Assembly: GCA_017449745.1 (NCBI GenBank)
Contig: JAFTFD010000345.1
Span: 1 to 36,685 of the forward strand
Direction of reading: 5' to 3'
Source: Lachnospiraceae bacterium
GTDB taxonomy: Bacteria; Bacillota; Clostridia; Lachnospirales; Lachnospiraceae
DNA length: 36,685 bases
The translations under genes and the position numbers were made by a program. A model generated the notes under the pieces. It searched no databases and was not told where the DNA came from. It saw nothing but the letters and a program-made list of their open reading frames with translations. Shown in pieces: positions 16,031 through 35,594 of this stretch; positions within the stretch are counted from its first letter, which is position 1; every line of letters starts with the position of its first letter.

Positions 16031-16750
16031 TTACTCCGTGTCCCCGGTCTTCTCACCGGACTCCGGCTTCTCCGGATCTGGTGTCTCCTGAACCTTATTC
16101 TCCAGGTCCTGCTTTTCCGGTTCCTGTTTTTCCGATTCCTGTCTTTCCTTTTTCTTCTTTCCGGTCTTTTCCGGCTTGGTATTATACAGGGTCATCGCTT
16201 TATCGACGCCCTGTTCGATAATGCAGGCGATCGCATCCGCCGCCTTTTTTTCGGCTTCCACGAGGATCTTTTTATCTTCTCCCGTCGGATGTCCCAGCAC
16301 ATAGTTGGCCAGGTCCGCATTCGGGGACGGCTTTGCCCCCACGCCGACACGGATCCTGATAAAGTTTCCATCTCCCAGATGCTGCACGATGTTCTTAAGG
16401 CCGTTATGTCCTCCCGGGCTTCCCTTGGCCCTGATGCGCAGCTGCCCCTCCGGCAGGTCGATATCATCGGAGATGACGATCAGGTGCGTCTGATAGTCGA
16501 TCTTGTAGTAATCCACCACTTCCCTGACCGCTTCGCCGGACAGGTTCATATACGTCATCGGCTTCTGCGCGATCACTCTGGCGCTGCCGATTCTGCCCTT
16601 TCCGATCATGGATTTTCCAAACCGTGTGGGACCGTCGATCTTCCAGGTATCGATCAGTTCATCGAGAGTCTCAAATCCGACATTGTGCCTTGTTCCGTCA
16701 TATTGTTTTCCGGGATTTCCCAGCCCGGTGACCAGCCATACATTTTCCAT
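16031..16750 (-). CDS. pth: Peptidyl-tRNA hydrolase with charged C-terminal tail
   Basis: Frees tRNA from peptidyl-tRNAs that drop off the ribosome. The catalytic core (about residues 1-190) shows GLGNPGKQYDGTRHNVGF, including the conserved Asn and the catalytic His, then KPMTYMNLSG, SDDIDLPEG and GSPGGHNGLKN. A tail of about 45 residues, almost entirely Lys, Glu, Pro, Gln and Asp, follows (KPEKTGKKKKERQ onward to the end), which typical ~190-aa Pth proteins lack. It looks disordered and its function is unknown. The stop is 3 nt before mfd. A TATAAT (16790-16795) in the gap upstream could belong to its promoter, but I see no matching -35. Shine-Dalgarno is weak. Confidence 0.95.
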   Translation of the reverse strand: MENVWLVTGLGNPGKQYDGTRHNVGFETLDELIDTWKIDGPTRFGKSMIGKGRIGSARVIAQKPMTYMNLSGEAVREVVDYYKIDYQTHLIVISDDIDLPEGQLRIRAKGSPGGHNGLKNIVQHLGDGNFIRIRVGVGAKPSPNADLANYVLGHPTGEDKKILVEAEKKAADAIACIIEQGVDKAMTLYNTKPEKTGKKKKERQESEKQEPEKQDLENKVQETPDPEKPESGEKTGDTE

Positions 16751-16876
16751 TTCAGATACCTATATAATCATACATTTCACATTAATCATATTATACTGGG
16801 GGCAAAGGATGATATGATGCCTTTGACCTTAGCATCATACTATACATTGTTTTTCCGCAGGATACCAGTTCAAATT

Positions 16877-28579: not shown

Positions 28580-29065
28580 TCAGACCTGTATCTCGATCCT
28601 GCGCCCGGTAGGCTCGTACTGATAATACCGGACCCCGGCCGCATTCAGCATCCGTTTGCTGGCAAGGGTGGCATCGGAATCCGCATATTTATCGCTTGCA
28701 TAAACGACCGTCCTGATCCCGGCCTGAATGATCGCCTTGGCGCATTCATTGCAGGGGAACAGGGAGACATACAGCGTAGAGCCCTCCAGGCTCCCGCCCC
28801 TGTAATTCAGGATGGCATTCAGTTCGCTGTGTGTCACAAAGGGATATTTGGTGTTCAGTCCGGTTCCTTCCCTGCCCCACGGAAACTCATCATCGTCACA
28901 TCCCTTAGGAAGCCCGTTGTATCCCATAGACAGGATCTTATGATCCCTGCTGACGATGCAGGAACCCACCTGCGTGTTTGGGTCCTTGGAGCGCATTCCG
29001 GACAGCTGAGCAACTCCCATAAAATACTCATCCCACGTAATGTAATCCTCTCTCTTGGAAGACAT
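28580..29065 (-). CDS. dCMP deaminase (ComEB-like)
   Basis: Converts dCMP to dUMP, feeding dTMP synthesis. The 161 residues start at MSSKRED (29065), directly after AAGGAGG at ideal spacing. Zinc ligands are in THSELNAIL (His79, with catalytic Glu81) and PCNEC (C105, C108). The canonical HAE triad reads HSE here, a tolerated substitution next to the ligand. GSCIVSRD, GYNGLPKGCDD and the nucleotide-binding NTKYPFVTHSE context fit the deoxycytidylate subfamily better than cytidine or tRNA deaminases. It follows upp by about 30 nt and precedes the wall hydrolase by 3 nt. Confidence 0.92.
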   Translation of the reverse strand: MSSKREDYITWDEYFMGVAQLSGMRSKDPNTQVGSCIVSRDHKILSMGYNGLPKGCDDDEFPWGREGTGLNTKYPFVTHSELNAILNYRGGSLEGSTLYVSLFPCNECAKAIIQAGIRTVVYASDKYADSDATLASKRMLNAAGVRYYQYEPTGRRIEIQV

Positions 29066-29098
29066 GGCATACCTCCTTAAGTGCCGCAAGGCACTTTA

Positions 29099-29728
29099 TT
29101 ATTTTGTACCGAAGATCCTGTCACCGGCATCGCCCAGGCCAGGTACGATATAGCCGTGTTCATTAAGGTGATCATCGAGAGCGCCGACATAGACATCTAC
29201 GTCAGGGTGTGCTTCCGTAAAGGTCTTGATTCCTTCCGGAGCGGCGATTATGCACAGGAAATGGATCTTGCGGCATCCGTGATCCTTGAGCATCTGGACA
29301 GCTGCTGCGGAGGAGCCGCCTGTTGCGAGCATCGGGTCAACGACGAAGACTTCTCTCTCTGCGGAATCTGCAGGGAGCTTGCAGTAATACTCTACAGGCT
29401 TGAGCGTTTTGGGATCCCTGTAAAGACCGATATGTCCCACCTTTGCCGCCGGGATCATCTTGAGCATGCCGTCAACCATTCCCAGTCCTGCGCGCAGGAT
29501 CGGAACGACTGCCAGCTTTTTGCCCTTCAGCTCTTTCGCCACTGTAGGGGCGACCGGTGTATCGATCTCCACATCAGTCAGCTCCAGATGACGGGTCGCC
29601 TCATAGCACAGCAGCATGGCAATTTCGCCTACGGTTTCACGAAAAGCCTTCGTTCCGGTCGTTCTGCGTCTGATGAAGCCGATCTTATGCTGAATTAACG
29701 GATGATCCATGATAATAACCTGTGACAT
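29099..29728 (-). CDS. upp: Uracil phosphoribosyltransferase
   Basis: Salvages uracil to UMP with PRPP. The 209 residues start at [10 protein letters not shown] (29728) behind GAGG; the open frame upstream is leader. Visible are [26 protein letters not shown], the PRPP loop [12 protein letters not shown] and C-terminal uracil-binding [18 protein letters not shown]. All family hallmarks and the usual ~209-aa length are present. It lies between rpiB and dCMP deaminase. Its own promoter-like -10 is in the short gap after rpiB. Confidence 0.97.
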
Positions 29729-29805
29729 TGTTAAACCTCTACCTCTTTCCGCGGTCTTGTCCGCAAACATTTGATATTTTTTGCAGCCTCAATACTGCAT
29801 TATCC

Positions 29806-34539: not shown

Positions 34540-34569
34540 TTGACGATATCCTTAAATTCACACTAAAAT
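34540..34569 (+). promoter_or_regulatory. Promoter of the mecA leader
   Basis: TTGACG (34540-34545) and TAAAAT (34564-34569) are spaced by 18 bp. Predicted start is about 34576, exactly at the first 36-nt repeat copy, giving a ~260-nt leader for mecA. Confidence 0.65.
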
Positions 34570-34574
34570 GATAC

Positions 34575-34808
34575 TAAGTTCAAAAGGCAGAAAAGCATGT
34601 TGTGCTTGCACAAGCAGGCTTTTCTATCTTTTGAACGCCAGACATGAGCAAGGAGCGATTTGCCATGTTTACAGGCAAATCAGCGGATTGCGAATGTTCG
34701 GGCAGGATCGCGGGAGCTGCGCTGCAGCGGAGCGATCCGGTATCATTTTCTTCTGATACGATTATCGTGATTTAAGTTCAAAAGGCAGAAAAGCATGTTG
34801 TGCTTGCA
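34575..34808 (+). repeat. Duplicated 36-nt leader repeat with alternative pairing, upstream of mecA
   Basis: Identical 36-nt copies lie at 34575-34610 and 34773-34808 (begin TAAGTTCAAAAGG, end TGTGCTTGCA). The arm 34618-34636 (GCTTTTCT..CTTTTGAAC) can pair over 19 positions with either copy, with one mismatch and one G-U. Between them are further stems: GATTTGCC/GGCAAATC, GGATCGC/GCGATCC and GTATCA/TGATAC. Copy 2 ends 14 nt before the mecA Shine-Dalgarno. Confidence 0.8.
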
Positions 34809-34835
34809 TTTACACAGCTTGCGAAAGAGGTGTTC

Positions 34836-35594
34836 ATGAAAATAGAGAAGATCAGTGACAGCCAGATCCGGATCACATTGACCGGAGAAGACCTGGCAGC
34901 GCGTCACCTCAAGCTCTCGGAACTGGCGTACGGATCCGAGAAGGCCAGAAAACTGTTTCAGGATATGATGCAGGAAGCCAACTACCAGTTCGGCTTCGAG
35001 GCAGACAATATTCCTCTGATGATCGAGGCGATCCCTCTGGCCGGAGGGAGTATCGTGCTGATCGTGACGAAGGTCGATAATCCTGAAGAGCTCGATTCCA
35101 GGTTCTCTTCTTTTTCGCCCTCCGTACAGGCCGTTCCCGGCGCCTCGGAAGGAACCCAGACGAGTGCCCTGGAGCAGCTGATCAGTTCCATCAGAAAGGA
35201 ATATACCCAGGAGGCCGTCAGCGCTCCCGCCGGTTCCCATGCTCCCGGACAGGCTGAAAACAAGCGCAGGGAATACGCAAAGCTCAGGGAATATTATCTG
35301 CTGCACCGTCTGTACAGCTTCCGTTCCGTTAACGATGCGACCCGGGCTGCCGCGGATGCGGCCGGTTTTACGGGGGAGAGTTCCCTGTATTACAGCGAAC
35401 AGGACCAGACCTACTATCTGTCTCTTTCCATGAAAGACGTCGATGAAATGGGCGAGATGCAGCGGATCCTGTCTGTCATCTCCGAATTCGGCACTTTAGT
35501 CCCCGCAGCATATGCCAGGGAACAGTACTTAAAAGAACATTGCAAAACCGTAATTGCCGACCATGCACTTCAGCGACTGAGCGCTCTTAACTGA
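34836..35594 (+). CDS. mecA: MecA-family adaptor protein
   Basis: MecA delivers substrates to the ClpC-ClpP protease and controls competence and other regulators in Firmicutes. The 252 residues start at MKIEKISDSQIRITLTGEDL (34836), with AAAGAGG in front; the TTG at 34800 lies in the repeat and lacks a ribosome site. The N-terminal substrate-binding domain (~1-85) includes FGFEADNIPLMIEAIP. A variable linker (~100-160) follows, then the ClpC-binding C-terminal domain (~165-250) with YSFRSVNDATRAA, SSLYYSEQDQTYYLSL and ISEFG. Length is slightly above Bacillus MecA (~218). Monocistronic, with a long structured leader and its own terminator. Confidence 0.9.
   Translation: MKIEKISDSQIRITLTGEDLAARHLKLSELAYGSEKARKLFQDMMQEANYQFGFEADNIPLMIEAIPLAGGSIVLIVTKVDNPEELDSRFSSFSPSVQAVPGASEGTQTSALEQLISSIRKEYTQEAVSAPAGSHAPGQAENKRREYAKLREYYLLHRLYSFRSVNDATRAAADAAGFTGESSLYYSEQDQTYYLSLSMKDVDEMGEMQRILSVISEFGTLVPAAYAREQYLKEHCKTVIADHALQRLSALN

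Follow-up and report, generated by a model that had tools for sequence, protein, structure and literature searches.

An RF01699 element of probable MITE-like nature in front of mecA of a Lachnospiraceae bacterium

Background

The leader of mecA in the window analyzed here, the whole stretch of 36,685 nucleotides of contig JAFTFD010000345.1 from a Lachnospiraceae bacterium, contains two identical copies of a 36-nt sequence and an arm that could pair with either of them, which raises the question of whether the leader is a two-state RNA switch or the trace of an inserted sequence. Both possibilities had been put forward in a first-pass annotation of this DNA. The gene itself, named from its sequence, is presumably that of the ClpC adaptor and not the PBP2a resistance gene. 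It lies in an open frame at 34800-35594 with an inner ATG at 34836, and matches were found in 58 of the 61 genomes of the genus, its own included. The features referred to below are as follows, in coordinates of the window.

34540..34569, plus strand: promoter-like TTGACG-18-TAAAAT before the element (10 of 12 consensus positions; candidate)
34569..34587, plus strand: left terminal repeat of the element (TGATACTAAGTTCAAAAGG), with 1 mismatch to the pattern that has 68 genome matches
34569..34745, plus strand: RF01699 Clostridiales-1 RNA, full length, with closing stem, copy 1/arm hairpin and two further stems (113.5 bits, cut-off 48, model 1-166 of 166)
34575..34610, plus strand: copy 1 of the 36-nt repeat, which forms the 5' side of the first hairpin (window self-comparison)
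34615..34636, plus strand: arm complementary to copies 1 and 2, 3' side of the first hairpin (86% over 22 nt each)
34750..34766, plus strand: decayed right terminal repeat (12 of 17 letters shared with other own-genome copies, a score reached at 6 of 36668 positions in the window)
34768..34808, plus strand: partial second copy of the left end, with exact copy 2 at 34773-34808 (repeat identity, 36-mer uniqueness, same arrangement in other copies)
34824..34830, plus strand: Shine-Dalgarno-like AAAGAGG of mecA (sequence)
34836..35594, plus strand: mecA (presumed ClpC adaptor), the next gene, in sense (open frame with inner ATG; homologues in the genus)
16790..16837, minus strand: very short derivative of the element, before the gene at 16031-16750 (left end at 16819-16837 with 2 mismatches; right half read by eye)

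Results

Comparison of the window with itself bore out the layout described in the first-pass annotation, in which one arm is complementary to each of two identical 36-nt copies. The direct repeat at 34575-34610 and 34773-34808 is 100% identical at a spacing of 198, and the arm is 86% complementary over 22 nt to 34578-34599 and, equally, to 34776-34797. TGAT precedes copy 2 (34768-34771) as it does copy 1, and the TGAT of copy 2 begins 199 nt after the start of the element. When the own genome (4.16 Mb in 393 contigs, 91% complete) was searched for the exact 36-mer, it was found at the two places in the window only, the third-best place having 3 mismatches and the backwards-pattern control giving 0; therefore, the repeat is not due to chance. 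TTGACG-18-TAAAAT upstream is only a candidate promoter, as 2 sites of this quality are present in the 701-base region compared with 1.4 in shuffles.

The structured stretch proved to be a full-length match to Rfam family RF01699, well over the cut-off. The first hairpin of this match is built from copy 1 and the arm; copy 2 lies outside of the match, between it and the ribosome-binding site of mecA. The first-pass annotation had recognized no described riboswitch class and missed the match to this family. In the discoverers' table (PMC2864571), the row for RF01699 marks it as a probable RNA that is probably neither cis-regulatory nor a riboswitch. The type given to it in Rfam is sRNA.

The predicted fold is supported by covariation among copies. 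In 18 copies, 24 of the 28 predicted pairs show changes on both sides. In an alignment of 110 copies, which was made to a model from the 18 copies and thus leans to structure, and in which related copies inflate such counts, 97.7% of the cells are paired and 603 are double-change cells (145 in shuffles), with a covariation score of 0.507 (0.138 in shuffles and at most 0.050 with the partners slid). At the paired columns G-U is found 35 times and A-C 14 times, indicating that this strand is favored. Wobble pairs are rare (35 of 2870 cells), and given this rarity the folded molecule may be single-stranded DNA rather than RNA. By our own reading of alignment A1, the second and third long stems each contain a purine-rich inner loop, GRAG opposite CGGA, and the first hairpin mostly ends in CUYG; these loops may serve as contacts, either with proteins or in tertiary structure. 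We also considered whether one subfamily's long outer stem is an inverted copy of the target and dropped the idea, because outer-stem letters are shared between the copies in genomes G056 and G008.

The first-pass annotation had proposed a genome-wide search for other copies, and this search gave 29 RF01699 matches in the own genome, of which 18 are over the cut-off and 8 are approximately 177 nt long. The window copy is one of these 8 and has 80-89% identity with the remaining seven over the Rfam span. Within the genus, 31 of the 61 genomes, own included, have a match, 27 of them over the cut-off, and up to 37 matches were found in one congener. Across the class, a match was found in 9 of 291 genomes (own included); 7 of these 9 belong to the own family, for which 10 genomes are listed. 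When named genomes were scanned for the third-stem motif, at least 117 stretches matched; among the 80 titles listed, most are Lachnospiraceae, Clostridiales or genera that we take to be Lachnospiraceae, and a few are Clostridium, Clostridiaceae, Eubacteriales or just Bacterium. Where halves of the element lie at contig ends, the inner sequence is common and the flanks are different, as expected of recent copies.

Short forms and solitary left or right ends are also present. In the own genome, for instance, two solitary left ends (L066 and L069, on contigs C228 and C45) are located directly before start codons, where their AAAAGG could act as a ribosome-binding site. Two short copies in opposite orientation on contig C129 (L071 and L072, at approximately 30.4 kb and 57.2 kb) have identical flanks, which indicates a duplicated segment or an assembly effect. 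The gene behind the very short derivative on the minus strand of the window, at 16031-16750, looks like pth.

The ends of the element are MITE-like. Full copies in the own genome span from TGATGCTAAGGTCAAAAGG to the complement of TGATATTGGGGTCAAAAGG, approximately 200 bp, so that the right end falls beyond the Rfam model, and the 19-nt terminal inverted repeats were found as 68 ends in the own genome with at most 2 mismatches, the backwards pattern giving 0. Across many genomes, 131 copies had enough flank for examination of the right end, which was scored as complementary when at least 14 of 21 letters paired with the left end; 20 of the 131 passed, compared with 0 of 131 in the control, and 111 failed. 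An exact direct repeat of 7-9 bp that begins with AT flanks 11 of the 20 copies that passed, and the other 9 are without exact duplication; in control pairings of left and right flanks from different copies, a match of that length occurs in 1.4%. In the window copy itself the right end is decayed but still recognizable (12 of 17 letters), and no target duplication is recognizable. Three of the features by which MITEs are known, namely short length with many dispersed copies, terminal inverted repeats and target site duplications, are thus found for the RF01699 element, the first as approximately 200 bp and 29 own-genome matches and the other two at the level of the family. The view of the leader as an inserted dispersed element, one of the two possibilities raised initially, is strengthened by the many copies, the terminal inverted repeats and the target duplications.

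For 141 copies we analyzed the placement relative to the surrounding genes, which were called mechanically as open frames. The following gene runs in sense in 88 copies, is antisense in 28 and is absent from the available stretch in 25 (p ~2e-8); the preceding gene runs in sense in 85 and is opposed in 50. Among those 85, there are 45 in which the stop codon of the preceding gene ends between -8 and +3 nt from the start of the element; these stops are TGA (25) or TAA (20) and never TAG, which makes up 76 of 500 in the background. Many copies themselves start with TGA or TAA, and therefore a frame cut by the insertion would also end there. The protein ends before the copies look natural, as we judge them, for YchF, uracil phosphoribosyltransferase, GyrB and a response regulator. 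Of the copies in 33 co-directional gaps, 19 begin no more than 3 nt from the stop, compared with 5.5 expected if starts were uniform. Furthermore, a TATAAT-like box is located 0-8 nt before the element in 35 of the 85 copies that are not at a stop (9.3 expected from shuffled flanks) and in 14 of the 53 copies at a stop (3.5 expected); the window copy belongs to the former group and lies behind such a box. Part of this placement may be due to selection against insertions at other positions and to a preference for AT-rich targets, as opposed to true targeting.

One site could be followed across genomes. Behind upp, in 12 Butyrivibrio-type genomes that were picked as element carriers, some of them at this very site, the element is present in 6 with a fold recognizable by the model, and by eye the site holds a relic in 2 and is empty in 4, one of the empty sites having another neighbor gene. 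The site was therefore gained and lost. The window genes that match the upp site (28580-29089 and 29099-29770, minus strand) are approximately 10 nt apart, without room for the element.

Second copies are not peculiar to mecA. In 44 of 129 copies, part of the element recurs within the 250 nt downstream, compared with 5 upstream and 3 in the reversed control, and for the first 55 nt alone the numbers are 26 downstream, 4 upstream and 0 in the control. The arrangement is thus a trait of the RF01699 family and not of mecA. Copy 2 in the window most likely arose locally, by duplication of the left end from copy 1, because the two copies share letters found nowhere else in the own genome; this one letter combination also speaks against an independent second insertion as the origin of copy 2. 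The earlier suggestion that the element brought its own duplicated end is therefore right in that a partial second copy is common in the family, and the uniqueness of the 36-mer suggests that in this leader the duplicate was most likely made in place.

A search for PF00872 in 4 genomes and an inspection of five stretches between facing ends revealed no autonomous partner of the element; the open frames in the five stretches did not look transposase-like by reading, a few of the facing ends enclosing host genes only, and one protein was scanned with family models. An IS256-type mobilizer, guessed from the length of the duplications, received no support, as no PF00872 member over the cut-off was found in the 4 genomes. 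The one sub-threshold match is an IS6-like protein, and ends of the RF01699 element are not located beside its gene. Contig C123 of the own genome encodes a 485-aa IS6-like transposase with an N-terminal cysteine-rich part (L245, 835-2292), which is below the NCBIfam IS6 cut-off.

Discussion

This work suggests that the mecA leader very probably contains a MITE-like, non-autonomous element of approximately 200 bp with an RF01699 core, which was inserted before mecA and whose left end was later duplicated on the spot. Alongside what was computed, namely family membership, dispersal, terminal inverted repeats, target duplications in other copies, the covarying fold, the sense bias and the uniqueness of the 36-nt sequence, we propose the following course of events. 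The element, moved by a transposase supplied in trans, would have entered sense-wise directly behind the -10-like box in front of mecA, and its left end would later have been duplicated just behind it. On this view mecA would be transcribed through the element, the mRNA would fold as Rfam predicts, and the pairing between the arm and copy 2 would be a by-product of the duplication. Counting against this reading are the failure to find an autonomous partner in the genomes and stretches searched, the decayed right end of the window copy and its lack of a recognizable target duplication, and the 9 of 20 copies without an exact duplication and 111 of 131 without a clear right end.

Several other explanations were considered. 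In a two-state mecA switch, as proposed in the first-pass annotation, the arm would pair either with copy 1 or, once transcription has proceeded further, with copy 2, thereby changing access to the ribosome-binding site. The two pairings are equally strong by construction, the computed energies are -107.0 kcal/mol for the full leader, -101.4 kcal/mol with copy 1 held single-stranded and -98.9 kcal/mol with copy 2 held single-stranded, and the best fold of leaders cut at 34810 or 34840 uses copy 2, so that two states are possible on paper. However, the hairpin with copy 1 is the first to form (-28.2 kcal/mol by 34640), and it prevails in the full leader, with 17.1 expected pairs compared with 2.5 for copy 2. 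The comparison of mecA leaders in relatives, which had been suggested at the outset, also went against the switch: the element is absent from all 29 other mecA loci fetched from the 58 genomes with a MecA match, own included (at least 700 nt of upstream sequence in 28 and only 138 nt in one; the MecA of the best-scoring congener is 55% identical), and thus is not conserved before the same gene as would be expected of a riboswitch. Furthermore, the second pairing is found in one genome only and between identical copies, which give no covariation, and downstream second copies occur at many genes of the family. With 0 of 29 loci and a 36-mer unique in the own genome, the riboswitch reading was set aside for lack of comparative support, and a switch at mecA appears highly improbable.

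Alternatively, the host could have taken over the mobile element after insertion, in which case selection would maintain its fold as a leader or intercistronic RNA with an effect on translation or on the stability of the transcript. This is conceivable but doubtful. The presence of the element behind upp in half of the Butyrivibrio-type genomes with its fold still recognizable, the sense bias (88 compared with 28) and the excess of G-U over A-C at paired columns are consistent with such a role, whereas the empty and relic sites behind upp in genomes picked as carriers, the scarcity of wobble pairs, and the lack of any sign of age or use at mecA, where none of the other 29 loci has the element, argue against it. 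A free small RNA with its own promoter and an end near 34745-34772, for which mecA would merely lie downstream, would agree with the Rfam type and with the discoverers' judgment of probably not cis-regulatory in the table of PMC2864571. In contrast, no terminator-like site was found between 34745 and mecA, the two in the scanned region both being elsewhere, the promoter-like box would serve mecA too, and the copies sit sense-wise before genes, making this explanation quite unlikely.

If a MITE-like insertion is the correct reading, then an RNA listed since 2010 as likely non-regulatory is to be re-read as a family whose copies behave like transposable-element insertions, and such a fold in a single leader should not be taken for a gene-specific switch. 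This raises the question of why a covarying multi-stem fold is retained in a transposable element and why that element sits at -10 boxes and stop codons. It is a possible, if rather unlikely, idea that RF01699 represents a class of transposable elements that needs its own multi-stem RNA, or single-stranded DNA, fold to move, enters sense-wise at gene borders (behind a -10 box or at a stop codon) and would ride in host mRNA as a ready-made leader or spacer RNA. No paper treating RF01699 as mobile was found in the open-access literature, judged by titles and the starts of abstracts, and the main text of a MITE review (PMC10969869) does not mention Lachnospir, Clostridi or Rfam.

Compared with RF01699 as published, the stretch in the window is a full-length, over-cut-off member of the same family. 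RF01699 appears in PMC2864571 as a table row; the present analysis adds its terminal repeats and right end, the target duplications and the second copies in tandem. Among known elements, PMC10969869 describes QMITE2 of Coxiella burnetii with terminal repeats of 23-29 bp, a core of 113-145 bp, direct repeats of 7-9 bp and a strongly folded transcript, and the RF01699 element resembles it in all four, a likeness of description; a covarying multi-stem inner fold such as that of the RF01699 element is not part of that description of QMITE2. Similarly, the account in PMC3049150 presents BOX, RUP and SPRITE of Streptococcus pneumoniae as small, dispersed and probably non-autonomous elements with folded transcripts, some of which are co-transcribed in leaders, and the RF01699 element is like them in these respects, again by description. 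In contrast to BOX, RUP and SPRITE, which are enriched downstream of coding sequences according to the same account, most RF01699 copies have the next gene in sense, and many lie at a stop codon or directly follow a -10-like box.
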